From positions 1-64,000 of the forward strand of contig NZ_CALXSK010000002.1 in assembly GCF_944391105.1 (NCBI RefSeq): a stretch of 64,000 nt of DNA. Reading direction: 5' to 3'. Shown here piece after piece: positions 37,670 to 42,443 of the stretch. Position numbers and translations under genes: made by a program. The first letter of the stretch is position 1. The number at the start of each line of letters is the position of its first letter. Origin of the DNA: an uncultured Victivallis sp. (GTDB taxonomy: Bacteria > Verrucomicrobiota > Lentisphaeria > Victivallales > Victivallaceae). The notes under the pieces were generated by a model. The model was not told the origin of the DNA. It saw nothing but the letters and a program-made list of their open reading frames with translations, and searched no databases.

Positions 37670-38102
37670 AAGAGATAACTCCCGTTTTTACATGATGTTC
37701 AGGGGGAAATATATCACCGTTTCCGGGAAAATCAATCCCGCAGACCAGATAGCTTCCCAGAAGCAGCGAGAGGAGTGCAATGTGGATCGCAAGATCCCAC
37801 CACGGGAGATGCTGCGACGATTTCCGGCACAGAAGCAGCACAATCCGCCATGCGAATTCCGCGAGGAGGAACGCCGCCAGATACGGCGTGACCGGATTGA
37901 GAAAATCGAACTCCCCGCGCCAGAGTTTCGCGAGGTCACGGGTCGTACCGCAGAAGGGACATGGATTCCCGGTCATGCTCCGGTAACTGCACTTCCAGAC
38001 GGCCGGGAACAGAAACCGCATTCCCCGGGCGATGACTGGCAATGCGGCGATGTAACAGAGCAGTCCGAAAACCGTCCAGTTCAGAATGCGGTATCGTTTC
38101 AT
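37659..38102 (-). CDS. DUF2752 membrane protein
   Basis: This 147-residue protein has three predicted membrane helices and the DUF2752 hallmark NPCPFCGTTRDLAKLWRGEF. The function is unknown. Its 3' end overlaps glnN and it follows a small membrane protein by 18 bases, so a four-gene minus-strand transcript (38474 to 35144) is likely. Confidence 0.8.
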   Translation of the reverse strand: MKRYRILNWTVFGLLCYIAALPVIARGMRFLFPAVWKCSYRSMTGNPCPFCGTTRDLAKLWRGEFDFLNPVTPYLAAFLLAEFAWRIVLLLCRKSSQHLPWWDLAIHIALLSLLLGSYLVCGIDFPGNGDIFPPEHHVKTGVISYER

Positions 38103-38120
38103 ACCGGGGGCGGCGCGGGA

Positions 38121-38474
38121 TCAGTCCCAGTCGAATTTTCTGTTGTCGGGATCCTTCGTCTCAATGATTTCTTCCTCCTGCGCTTTTTGGATTTCGATCT
38201 GAATCGCTTCCTGTAAGCTCGGATCGTTGGCAACGGCAGCCGCCTGTGCCGCGACCAGCAAAGTCCAGATCAGGATGAAGACGAGGGCCAGGGCGTTCAG
38301 CACCGTTCCTGCAATGCCCATTCCTTTCGACTGACCGTGCTTATGCTTCACAATGATGTCCCCGATGCCGAGCCCGAGGCCGATCAGGCACGGGAGGAGG
38401 GCGACGATTCCGCAAAAAGGAATCACGGCGACAATGAGACTTAAAATTCCCAGAATCAACGCTGCTACACCCAT
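38121..38474 (-). CDS. Small membrane protein, DUF4190-like
   Basis: This 117-residue protein has two hydrophobic halves: GVAALILGILSLIVAVIPFC, then a Gly-rich helix and LNALALVFILIWTLLVAAQA. An acidic tail (QKAQEEEIIETKDPD) follows. The pattern resembles DUF4190-type domains, which often accompany DUF2752 proteins. GGGAGG lies seven bases before the ATG. It is the first gene of the glnN group. Confidence 0.6.
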   Translation of the reverse strand: MGVAALILGILSLIVAVIPFCGIVALLPCLIGLGLGIGDIIVKHKHGQSKGMGIAGTVLNALALVFILIWTLLVAAQAAAVANDPSLQEAIQIEIQKAQEEEIIETKDPDNRKFDWD

Positions 38475-38613
38475 CTGATGACCTCCCTGATTGGTTTTGC
38501 GGGGTTCGTTGTTTGCCGGAATTACGGCGCTCGATCAGAAATATACCATCATATTCGCTCCCTGCAAGTGCCGGGAAAGAAGATTTTGCTTAAATCCGGA
38601 CTTTGCCGGTGAT
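38475..38613. other. Intergenic region, nothing recognised
   Basis: This 139-base gap between two minus-strand genes should contain the promoter of the DUF4190/DUF2752/glnN group. I found no convincing -35/-10 pair. Confidence 0.3.
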
Positions 38614-39261
38614 TCAGCGGGGGACGAGCGTTGCGGGCAAACTGGTCGTGTTGGCCGGTTTCAGGGTCGCAGGCAGAGTTGTCGCGTTGGCCGGAGTCTG
38701 AGTGGCGGGCAGGCTGGTCGAGTTGGCCGGTTTCAACGAGGGAGGCAGACTGGTCGCATTGGCCGGTTTCTCTTCCCGGTGCGGGACAGAACCGGCGGTT
38801 GCAGGGGGCGCCGGTGTTTCCGACTTCACCGGAGGAGCGGACGGTTCCGGGAAGGCCGGCTTTTCCGGTGTTTTCGGGACTTCCGGTGTTTCCGGTTTCA
38901 CCGGAGGAGCGGGCAGTTCCGGTTGTGGCCGGGAGGGTTCCTGTTTGATTTCCGATCCCGGTTCCGGCTGAGAGGGCGGCGGACCGGATTCCGGTTTCTG
39001 CGGCGGGAGTGGTGGTGTTTCTGGCCGGACGGGCGGCTTCTCCGGGCGTTGCTCTCCCGGCGGAACAGATTCCGTAACCGGAAGTGGCGCGGAGGATGTC
39101 GGGCGGAACAGCGAAAGGAGGATCAGCAGCGCTCCGAGCAGGATTCCGAGGAGCCCGGGCCACGCGGGCTTCCGGTTCCGCCGGGCGTGAAGCAGCACCG
39201 CCGCTCCGAGGAGTGCGACGATGATTCCCGCCGCGGGCATGAGCAGGGGAAATCCCGTCAT
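38614..39261 (-). CDS. Proline-rich membrane protein with 13-residue C-terminal repeats
   Basis: This 215-residue protein has two N-terminal membrane helices (about residues 4-24 and 34-53), then a long proline/glutamate linker. Its last 50 residues contain four copies of a unit like KPANATSLPPSL or TPANATTLPATL. I recognise no family. The start forms an ATGA overlap with the end of the tryptophan-rich lipoprotein gene, so the two are made together. The linker could span the periplasm or cell wall and the repeats could bind a partner or be glycosylated; this is inference. Confidence 0.65.
   Translation of the reverse strand: MTGFPLLMPAAGIIVALLGAAVLLHARRNRKPAWPGLLGILLGALLILLSLFRPTSSAPLPVTESVPPGEQRPEKPPVRPETPPLPPQKPESGPPPSQPEPGSEIKQEPSRPQPELPAPPVKPETPEVPKTPEKPAFPEPSAPPVKSETPAPPATAGSVPHREEKPANATSLPPSLKPANSTSLPATQTPANATTLPATLKPANTTSLPATLVPR
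38620..38775 (-). repeat. Four tandem 39-bp repeats coding PAN-x-T-x-LP units
   Basis: The DNA repeats a unit containing TTGGCCGG and GGCAG/CGGGCA blocks about every 39 bases, giving four Pro-Ala-Asn-x-Thr-x-Leu-Pro units at the protein C-terminus. Such repeats can change copy number by slippage. Confidence 0.6.
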
Positions 39262-41099
39262 TTCCGCTCCTCCTGTTCCGGCGTCTCTTTGCCGCCCCAC
39301 GGGATGAAGAAGATGTGGCCGGATTTCCTGCCGTTGTCGTTCTCATAGCTGAAGACGCGGTAGAGGAAGCTCCAGCGGTAACGGCCCGGCGCCTCTTTCA
39401 CATCGATGAAGAGCGGGTAGAGCGTTTCGCTCGAATCGCCATCATGCTTTTCGCGGTAGAGGTAGCCGAGGATGCGGAAATCGCTTTTGTCCCGGTATTT
39501 GCGCATGAACAAGGTTCCGAATCCGAACAGCCCCCAGTAGTCGTCGCCGAACCGCTCGTACCACGAGGTGATGCCGCCGAGCGTCCGGTGTTCAAAGTAA
39601 TCGACTTCGCTGCAGTAGCGTTCGACGATCGTGCGGGTTAAAGTTTCGAGTTCCTCCGGATTTTCAGGAACCGGCAGCGCGGAATCGAGCCGGGCGAGCT
39701 GTTCGGCGACTTTTTGTTTTCTTTCGACGATATTCGCTTCCGCTTTTTTCCACTCCTCCGATTGAGTATCCTTTTTGATCCAGCTCCGGCGCTGGAATGC
39801 CCAGTCGAGGTGACTCAGAGCGTTTGCCAGTTTCTCAAGTTCCAGCCGGGAATCGGCCGACTTCCAGACGCGCGCAGTGCCGGACTCGTGGAATGCGAGG
39901 ATCGTGCCGAACCAGCTTTTGGTGGATTCCAGTTCGTTGCATGGCACCTTCTCTCCAAAGGAGAACCCTTTCCCAAACGGCGTGTAGGATCGGTTCGGCA
40001 GCAAATCCGCGTTTTTTTCCTTGTCGGTTCGGGAAATCTGTAGCACGGGTGAATACCAGTCGAAATCGTTGTAAGTCACCAGCGGCCAGATTCGCCAGGT
40101 TCGGATCGCACCGTCACTCCGGATATACCATCTGACAACTGGCCAGAGCACATGCCCCTCGCTTTCATCGTCCGACTGTTCGATCTGAAACAGCGGATAA
40201 CCGATGGTGAAATCAAATCCGTTTTTTCGTTTTTTCCAACCGTAAAGCGGAAAGACGCCGTGGTTTCCGTTCTGCCACCACACCGGCCCGATGTGGCAGA
40301 AGTTGTTTCCGTAGCGTCCTATCAGCGGGAAGACTCCCATTTCAGCCCCGTTCCTGCGCCACCACACCGGTCCGATCATCCGGAAATCATTCGTCATCCA
40401 TACGATCGAGAAAATACCCCAGCTCAGATGGTCGGAAGAGTTCCACCATACTGGCCCGATGATGTAGAAATCGTCCATCCTCCATACGATCGGGAAAACA
40501 CCCCAGTACGGCCGGTCGGAAGAGCGCCACCATACCGGCCCGATGACCCGATAATCGTCCATGACCCATACGACCGGAAATACGCCCCAGTCATCGCGTA
40601 TTTTCCAGGCCGGGCAGAAAGACCAGCTCCGGAAAGAGTCTTCCCAGTAGGCGATAGGAAAGATCACCGTTTCGTCGGTGGGGGTTCTCCATACCGGTCC
40701 GAACTGGCGGATCTTACCGCTCCAGATGAAAAGAGGAATCGCGGCGAAAAAACCGTCCCCCCAGACGCAGTTCAGCGCCCAGCCGCCGTCGTGATCCCAC
40801 CCCGAGAGCGGCCAGAGGAGTGAGGCTTCATTCCCCTCCTGGCAGTAGAACGGGCGAACTGCGAAGCCGCGGCTGTCCACGTCGAACAGCGGCCAGAGCA
40901 CCGAAGTGAAGTCGTCGTTGTGATAGTAGAGCGGCCAGACGTTGACGGTCTGATTGTCGAACCGCACCCGGATCTCTCCGCTCCCCGCGGGGGAGTTCCG
41001 CCATGCCCGCTCACTGCTGATGCAACCGGATAACAATACCAGCGCTCCCGCCGCCATCGCAGCGAACGCCGCCGCCGTCAAACCTCTAGAGTTTCGCAT
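39258..41099 (-). CDS. Tryptophan-rich repeat lipoprotein, unknown family
   Basis: This 613-residue protein has a lipobox (VLLSGC, Cys26). The region to about residue 340 is packed with aromatic beta-strand-like repeats. GPVWW occurs at residues 187, 215, 243 and 271, an exact 28-residue period, in units of the form WGVFPIVW-x-MDDF-x-IIGPVWW. An earlier related unit has GPVW at 134. The rest is charged and partly helical and ends in an EQEERK tail. A repeated aromatic beta-structure anchored to the outer membrane may form a propeller- or solenoid-like surface protein. I recognise no named family. It is coupled to the proline-rich membrane protein. Confidence 0.75.
   Translation of the reverse strand: MRNSRGLTAAAFAAMAAGALVLLSGCISSERAWRNSPAGSGEIRVRFDNQTVNVWPLYYHNDDFTSVLWPLFDVDSRGFAVRPFYCQEGNEASLLWPLSGWDHDGGWALNCVWGDGFFAAIPLFIWSGKIRQFGPVWRTPTDETVIFPIAYWEDSFRSWSFCPAWKIRDDWGVFPVVWVMDDYRVIGPVWWRSSDRPYWGVFPIVWRMDDFYIIGPVWWNSSDHLSWGIFSIVWMTNDFRMIGPVWWRRNGAEMGVFPLIGRYGNNFCHIGPVWWQNGNHGVFPLYGWKKRKNGFDFTIGYPLFQIEQSDDESEGHVLWPVVRWYIRSDGAIRTWRIWPLVTYNDFDWYSPVLQISRTDKEKNADLLPNRSYTPFGKGFSFGEKVPCNELESTKSWFGTILAFHESGTARVWKSADSRLELEKLANALSHLDWAFQRRSWIKKDTQSEEWKKAEANIVERKQKVAEQLARLDSALPVPENPEELETLTRTIVERYCSEVDYFEHRTLGGITSWYERFGDDYWGLFGFGTLFMRKYRDKSDFRILGYLYREKHDGDSSETLYPLFIDVKEAPGRYRWSFLYRVFSYENDNGRKSGHIFFIPWGGKETPEQEERK
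40255..40640 (-). repeat. Tandem 84-bp repeats of the tryptophan-rich lipoprotein
   Basis: Blocks such as CCACCATACCGGCCCGATGA recur at about 84-base spacing on the plus strand, coding the 28-residue GPVWW units. Confidence 0.6.
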
Positions 41100-41168: not shown

Positions 41169-42443
41169 TCAGAGAAACTGGAGCAGAACTTTCAGCAAAC
41201 CGAGTTCGTAGACCGCGTCGAGGACCGTGTAGCGCGTGCGGATCAGCTGCGCCGCCGCGACGCCGTGGAGGAACTGTCCCGCCGGGAGGCCGATCTGCGC
41301 CGGGAGAACCGGGCAGTGCGCCGCTTCGAGTTTCTTCCGGAGTTCCGCGAGCGGAAAGAGCTGCCGCCGCGTCGCTTCGCGCAGGAACTCCCACGAGTCG
41401 TAAAGCTGTTCGCGCCGTTCGCGCAGCGCGTCGCCCTCGAGGAACTTGCTCATGGCGATCTCCTTCGCCTCGGAGCCGTAGCAGCCGCGCATCAGCAGCG
41501 CGTCGATCTCCGCCTCGCGCGCCGCGCGGTTGAGGCCGGGTTCGGCGAAACGGCGCGCCTCGTCGACGCTCAGAGAGAAGAGTTTTTCAAAGAGCGCCGT
41601 CGAGACGACCGTCCCGAGCGAAACCTTGAAACCGTGCGACACCGATTCCCCGTTGAAACAGAGATCCTCCATCTCCCAGACGTGGCTCATCAGGTGTTCC
41701 GCGCCGGAGGCCGGTCGTGAATCGCGGCAGAGCTGCATCGCGTACCCGGTCGCCGCAAGCCCCATGAAGACGCGCGTCACATCGGTTGGGTCCGAAAGGT
41801 TGTCGCGCAGCGGCACCTGAACGAGCTCCCACACGTCCTGCCGGATCGGGTGCAGCCCGAGCCGGTCCGCGAGAATCCAGTCCGCTCCCGCCGGAATCTT
41901 CGCCATCAAATCGGCGTAACCGGCCGCAAACATGTCGCCCGGCGCATTTGCGAGCGTCTCCGTATCCGCAACGATCGCGAGCGGCGCGGGGCACGGCAGC
42001 GTCTTCTTGAGGCCGTCCACATTCAGCGCCGCGCCGTAGGAGGTGTAGCCGTCGACCGAGGGCGCCGTCGGCACGCAGCAGTAGCGGACTCCCTTGACGC
42101 CCGACGCCCGTTTCACAAGATCGTTGACCGTTCCGCCGCCGACTGCGACCGGAACGCACTCTTCCGGAAACACCGCGAGCAGTTCGTCGACGTGCCCGGT
42201 CGTCGCATGCAGCGTCGGGCTCCCCGGGAAGAGGTACGGTTCGCAGCAGGCGATTCCCGCGGCTTTCAGAATTCCGTTGAGCTTCTCCCCGGCGGCGCGC
42301 CAGGTGTTGTCGTCCGCGACGATCCACGCCTTCGGGGCGGAGCCCCAGTGTTTGCGCAGAATCTCCGGTGCGTGACGCATCGCCCCGGCTTCCAGTACAA
42401 AGCTCTCCGTCTCAAGTCCCGGCGGAATCGGAATCAGATTCAT
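41169..42443 (-). CDS. egsA: sn-glycerol-1-phosphate dehydrogenase (AraM/EgsA family)
   Basis: This 424-residue iron-alcohol-dehydrogenase-fold protein binds NAD(P) through PVAVGGGTVNDLVKRAS and has PTAPSVDGYTSYGAAL. The metal ligands are an Asp in the AGYADLMAK region and His in ASGAEHLMSHVWEM and SVSHGFKVSLG. The family reduces dihydroxyacetone phosphate to glycerol 1-phosphate: archaeal lipids, and in Bacillus AraM with heptaprenylglyceryl phosphate. GGAGG lies nine bases before the ATG. It stands alone, divergent from aconitase, so its bacterial role is open. Confidence 0.85.
   Translation of the reverse strand: MNLIPIPPGLETESFVLEAGAMRHAPEILRKHWGSAPKAWIVADDNTWRAAGEKLNGILKAAGIACCEPYLFPGSPTLHATTGHVDELLAVFPEECVPVAVGGGTVNDLVKRASGVKGVRYCCVPTAPSVDGYTSYGAALNVDGLKKTLPCPAPLAIVADTETLANAPGDMFAAGYADLMAKIPAGADWILADRLGLHPIRQDVWELVQVPLRDNLSDPTDVTRVFMGLAATGYAMQLCRDSRPASGAEHLMSHVWEMEDLCFNGESVSHGFKVSLGTVVSTALFEKLFSLSVDEARRFAEPGLNRAAREAEIDALLMRGCYGSEAKEIAMSKFLEGDALRERREQLYDSWEFLREATRRQLFPLAELRKKLEAAHCPVLPAQIGLPAGQFLHGVAAAQLIRTRYTVLDAVYELGLLKVLLQFL

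Follow-up and report, generated by a model that had tools for sequence, protein, structure and literature searches.

The window analysed here, a 64,000-nucleotide stretch of DNA from an uncultured Victivallis sp. (contig NZ_CALXSK010000002.1), encodes a tryptophan-rich lipoprotein in which the pentapeptide GPVWW recurs at a fixed spacing. What kind of repeat is this, how widely is it shared, and what could such a protein do in the bacterial envelope? An initial annotation of the window had proposed that the protein binds glycans or stabilises the envelope. We combined repeat statistics, structure prediction, family searches and gene neighbourhood comparisons to address these questions.

Gene and lipoprotein signal

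The open reading frame is a genuine gene with a GGAGG ribosome-binding site a few base pairs 5' of its ATG and an ortholog in a sister species (L031/L032, contig CALXOE010000046.1, uncultured Victivallis sp.), from which it differs with a dN/dS of 0.34 overall and 87% identity over aligned positions. The gene and its signal are:

39258-41099, minus strand: coding sequence of the strand-repeat lipoprotein (613 amino acids, ATG start; ortholog in sister species)
41022-41099, minus strand: signal peptide and lipobox LSGC (residues 1-26; Cys26 is the lipidated residue, with Ile at +2)

The signal peptide ends in a lipobox (residues 23-26) with cysteine at +1, as is diagnostic for bacterial lipoproteins, and the initial assignment as a lipoprotein was correct. 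Cys26 is invariant in alignment A1, and the lipobox pattern is present in 67 of 76 family proteins; the other nine are possibly mis-started or cut reading frames, which were left uncorrected. By Escherichia coli rules, Ile at +2 is no pointer to inner-membrane retention, and we infer an outer-membrane location. A second reading frame (38614-39300, minus strand, 228 amino acids) overlaps the end of the lipoprotein gene; its product has a hydrophobic stretch and then a proline-rich region and KPANSTSLPAT-type near-repeats, and it is largely missing in the sister species, with 38100-39300 being a divergence hotspot.

An array of proline-centred strands

GPVWW occurs at residues 187, 215, 243 and 271, exactly as first noted, and a fifth, degenerate copy (GPVW) lies at residue 134. 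The four full copies begin successive units:

40458-40541, minus strand: 28-residue unit 1 (GPVWW...; residues 187-214)
40374-40457, minus strand: 28-residue unit 2 (residues 215-242)
40290-40373, minus strand: 28-residue unit 3 (residues 243-270)
40206-40289, minus strand: 28-residue unit 4 (residues 271-298)

When residues 41-375 are aligned to themselves, the strongest signal is at lag 28 (z = 9.3 versus shuffles), and lags 56, 13 and 41 also give signal. The description of an exact 28-residue repeat is accurate for the spacing and the pentapeptide but not for whole units, which share only 25-61% amino-acid identity. Tryptophan content, which had also been flagged as high, is 6.7% in the whole protein and 8.8% in residues 26-400.

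These units are part of a longer array, defined by motif positions and spacing statistics:

40035-40943, minus strand: array of ~21-22 proline-centred strand modules, ~14 residues apart (residues 53-355)

Each module of ~14 residues contains an aromatic or aliphatic residue, proline, an aliphatic residue and an aromatic residue, with polar turns. A scan for the motif hydrophobic-Pro-hydrophobic-(hydrophobic or small) marks residues 56, 70, 83, 97, 122, 135, 148, 163, 175, 188, 203, 216, 244, 258, 272, 284, 302, 320, 339 and 351, plus a few others, and in our reading residues 111 and 231 fit the module spacing, although they have no proline. The 76 family proteins analysed contain 1792 motifs; the distance from one motif to the next is 13 or 14 residues in 423 cases, compared to ~9 expected in shuffles, and a second spacing peak occurs at 16-18 residues. 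Aromatic and aliphatic residues predominate at positions -3 to +4 relative to the proline, with polar residues or glycine on either side. This profile and the motif spacing identify the repeat unit as a short strand with proline at its centre, together with a polar turn. In the GPVWW region, two ~14-residue strand modules make up each 28-residue repeat in a locally regular pattern, and the strands would pair as hairpins. The initial observation was, therefore, right, and the repeat is genuine, but its extent was understated because it far exceeds four copies.

The initial annotation had suggested that the array could be a solenoid or propeller. In AF2 models computed with the window sequence and its relatives at locus L031, the only recognisable elements are beta-hairpins, at a pLDDT of 33 (whole protein) and 53 (three units); this low confidence is due to very shallow alignments, which were 2 and 5 rows deep. 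The models carry little weight for the fold, whether solenoid, propeller or other, and are too poor to reveal a lipid-binding surface.

The window protein has no match in Pfam (E up to 10), NCBIfam, PHROGs or PDB sequences, and PDB profile searches with alignments A1, A2 and A4 returned nothing significant. No Pfam family recurs over 28 and 16 aligned members. The expectation that no characterised family would contain this protein has, thus, withstood profile searches, and the 14-residue proline-centred strand module is a repeat type new to the Pfam, NCBIfam and PDB sequences searched. No relative of the lipoprotein was found among viral contigs, plasmids and PHROGs, and literature searches returned no publication on the motif.

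Family distribution and architecture

The lipoprotein belongs to an undescribed, widespread Verrucomicrobiota family. Recognisable homologs are present in 33 of 61 related genomes, including that of the window. Profile A2, which was built on the N-terminal 80 residues, matches 85 of 137 order genomes, 92 of 198 class genomes and 92 of the 388 genomes in a phylum-wide sample, mostly with one copy each; ~38% of the order genomes are without the gene, although the search may miss some. Members range from about 400 to 1400 residues in length and share a common plan of lipobox, N-terminal domain, a strand array that differs greatly in length, and C-terminal segment. Beyond the array, the corresponding parts of the window protein are:

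40728-40967, minus strand: conserved N-terminal domain (residues 45-124; NxWPxxY..SxLWPxxDxDxxGFAxRPF..LxPLxxW in alignment A2)
39612-39863, minus strand: predicted helical segment (residues 413-496; secondary structure of a low-confidence AF2 model, pLDDT about 40-57 mostly)
39294-39587, minus strand: conserved C-terminal segment (residues 505-602; SFLYRVFSYE..GRKSGHIFFIPWG; conserved in A1)

Residues N53, W55, P56, P70, G78, R82, P83 and P122 of the N-terminal domain are invariant among the 23 proteins of A2. Family proteins end in ...SFLWRLF.YE......(GHI or DLL)FFIP, and distant members carry the C-terminal segment as SFLWRLFRYE..DLLFIPL. A second, shorter paralog of about 410-460 amino acids was found in several genomes of the order (L133 7088-8455, L134 195-1424, L135 5531-6916 and L105 6347-7648), and one such paralog lies near a DUF2339-DUF3999 pair with a single small gene between.

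The strand array is the variable part of these proteins, with 10-46 strand motifs per member. Among the proteins read, GPVWW is limited to the window genus plus one more protein (L103), with four copies in the window, two in the sister species, seven in L035, four in L036 and 0-3 elsewhere. The full architecture is also present in members without GPVWW, which marks the WW motif as a local elaboration. Alignment A3 and nucleotide comparison with the sister species directly reveal a difference of one whole unit:

40359-40442, minus strand: 84 bp absent from the sister-species ortholog (28 residues, about 220-247)

Strand units are, thus, gained or lost whole. A different kind of variation affects residues 301-400, for which dS relative to the sister species is 0.87, compared to 0.12-0.15 elsewhere along the coding sequence. 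Nucleotide identity falls to 61% at 39901-40050 (residues about 351-400), and this segment looks as if it was imported or recombined between the sister species.

Gene neighbourhoods

Neighbourhoods were compared for 73 family loci plus three more. Upstream of the window gene lies a glycerol-1-phosphate-dehydrogenase-like gene and downstream lie DUF4190-like, DUF2752 and type III glutamine synthetase genes; these neighbours were discarded as a functional clue because they are common to just one or two closest relatives. The product of the upstream gene (41169-42443, minus strand, 69 bp from the lipoprotein gene and on the same strand) has an iron-containing alcohol dehydrogenase fold and is closest to NAD(P)-dependent glycerol-1-phosphate dehydrogenase, with a score of 132 versus a cut-off of 413 bits.

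In other lineages the family gene adjoins genes for lysophospholipid protection. According to PMC8926400, DUF2339 and DUF3999 are Arc3A and Arc3B of Pseudomonas aeruginosa, which, together with Aas, shield this bacterium from phospholipase toxins. Arc3A blocks lysophospholipid build-up under phospholipase-toxin attack, Aas is an LplT-acyltransferase fusion that acts in parallel to Arc3A, and aas genes adjoin arc3 genes in many bacteria (PMC8926400). A second group found Arc3A and Aas to be protective against lipase effectors (PMC12663445). The Arc3 and LplT-PlsC(-Aas) pathways limit lysophospholipids in P. aeruginosa and E. coli.

DUF2339 lies near the family gene at seven loci (L043, L088, L095, L099, L104, L133 and L134), DUF3999 at four (L043, L104, L133 and L134), and LplT-PlsC or LplT-PlsC-Aas fusions at eight (L088, L089, L095, L099, L104, L114, L120 and L125), with patatin at L088, L089 and L125 and PlsY at L099. 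The arrangement is tightest at L104, where LplT-PlsC-Aas, the family gene, DUF2339 and DUF3999 follow each other in the same orientation, with two overlapping junctions and only 31 bp at the third. Two loci from the taxonomic family of the window have the order family gene-DUF2339-DUF3999 (L043) and, in another genus, the same order with one gene after the family gene (L133). The order is DUF2339-family gene-LplT/PlsC at L095, where the first two overlap, LplT/PlsC..DUF2339-patatin-family gene at L088, and Aas-family gene-PlsY..DUF2339 at L099. Linkage to DUF2339/DUF3999 and/or LplT-PlsC(-Aas) is, thus, observed directly in at least five lineages other than that of the window.

The family gene lies within 10 kb of DUF2339 in 7 of 49 phylum-sample genomes that have both, compared to 0.26 expected (Poisson P ~1.4e-8). 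The linked genomes (G026, G121, G073, G253, G382, G412 and G427) come from five taxonomic families. This P value is optimistic because it assumes genome independence, whereas G253 and G382 belong to the same genus, and because in G073 the genes between the family gene and DUF2339 are on the opposite strand; the excess is large despite this.

No adjacency to Arc3A, Arc3B or Aas genes was found in the window genome and its closest relatives. The DUF2339-DUF3999 pair of the window genome (G000:C2:106377-110293) is on the same contig, 66 kb away, and its PlsC-Aas gene is on another contig. Recurrent neighbours are missing from the majority of family loci, and some loci lie inside an unrelated DnaJ-SmpB-ABC-F block. 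ABC-transporter neighbours at 10 loci were rejected as a signal, being mixed, unrelated ABC ATPases that are largely ABC-F proteins of that block. Co-occurrence of the family gene with DUF2339 was likewise discarded as support: it is weak (odds ratio 1.7, P = 0.03, phylogeny uncorrected), and 43 of 92 family-bearing phylum-sample genomes are without DUF2339. At L112, L114, L123 and L126 the family gene adjoins DUF2157, a predicted membrane protein family, along with GDYXXLXY in three of these; DUF2157 is placed as DUF2339-DUF3999 is elsewhere, and DUF2157/GDYXXLXY and DUF2339-DUF3999 may be functional equivalents.

Possible function

Linkage to Arc3A/Arc3B and LplT-PlsC(-Aas) in relatives leads us to propose, tentatively and as the likeliest role, that the lipoprotein acts at the outer membrane as a partner in protection against lysophospholipids or phospholipases. 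Given the role of Arc3 and Aas in such protection, a family gene located between aas and arc3A is a candidate additional part. The lipid anchor would hold the protein in the outer membrane, where ~21-22 proline-centred strands may form a beta-meander, with its middle part paired as 28-residue hairpins, that the helical segment and the conserved C-terminal cap would close. The aromatic, proline-kinked strand surface could then bind or pass on (lyso)phospholipid, or shield the membrane from phospholipases, and the protein could thereby feed or spare Arc3A/Arc3B and LplT-PlsC-Aas, together with them or in parallel. A stronger version would see the family as a new phylum-wide part of outer-membrane lysophospholipid/phospholipase defence, whose extendable array would carry (lyso)phospholipids, or shield them, between the outer membrane and Arc3/LplT-Aas, and whose fold would be unseen in solved structures; taken in full, we consider this unlikely.

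Other functions must be weighed against this proposal. The protein could be purely structural, its stiff and length-variable beta array serving as an outer-membrane-anchored spacer or support with no specific ligand. This is a rather improbable reading, although conserved N- and C-terminal caps around an array of 10-46 strand motifs and the usual single copy per genome are consistent with it; it leaves the repeated linkage with lysophospholipid genes unexplained, and an essential structural part would not be expected to be absent from more than a third of order genomes, even if some copies were missed. An integral outer-membrane beta-barrel or pore with a lipoprotein anchor would account for strand length and turn composition, since a run of 8-9 hydrophobic residues and a polar turn add up to ~14 residues per strand, as in the hydrophobic positions -3 to +4 and the polar flanks beyond. 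Strands with two hydrophobic faces and a central proline in each would, however, be unusual for transmembrane strands, and the number of motifs varies freely, which makes a barrel very unlikely.

Glycan binding, as initially suggested, would make the protein a surface-exposed lipoprotein whose aromatic strands bind glycans, or else polymers of a host or prey. Surfaces that stack against sugars are typically built from Trp/Tyr-rich repeats, and the variation in unit number between relatives and the seemingly recombined residues ~351-400 would also suit a polymer binder. Neither a SusCD nor a glycoside hydrolase neighbourhood recurs at the family loci, however, and the carbohydrate-utilisation context amounts to sulfatases near four loci only, which are abundant in these bacteria. 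The WW motif is, moreover, only local, with the architecture kept in members that do not have it. We therefore regard glycan or polymer binding as distinctly unlikely. The lysophospholipid-gene context suggests that the other half of the initial interpretation, stabilisation of the envelope, is the better fit. Taken as a whole, the initial interpretation is partly supported.

Comparison with known systems

MORN and WG repeats are short aromatic beta-hairpin repeats. The window family resembles them in having tandem, aromatic-rich, two-strand units of about 20-28 residues, and differs in the central proline of every strand; the Pfam scan gave no MORN or WG match for the window protein (E up to 10) and 43 relatives. 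The nearest curated family is NCBIfam NF047486.1 (LA_1737_Cterm), named after what is presumably a locus tag of a Leptospira genome; literature searches returned no publication on the LA_1737 protein. Its profile has no match to the window protein at E up to 10, and its curated cut-off of 60 bits was reached in none of 388 genomes and by no scanned protein. It does match some distant family members within their strand repeats, best at L099 residues 231-361 (36.4 bits, E 4.6e-9), so the LA_1737_Cterm repeat is probably related to that of the family.

The proline-centred 14-residue module is present in about a quarter of sampled Verrucomicrobiota genomes, and if the proposed role is true, the Arc3/Aas pathway gains a possible outer-membrane arm. 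The lipoprotein family is not described in the available text of PMC8926400. The window protein resembles none of Arc3A, Arc3B and Aas and is unlinked to their genes in its own genome; the likeness to this system lies instead in gene order, because the family gene repeatedly adjoins these genes in several Verrucomicrobiota lineages.
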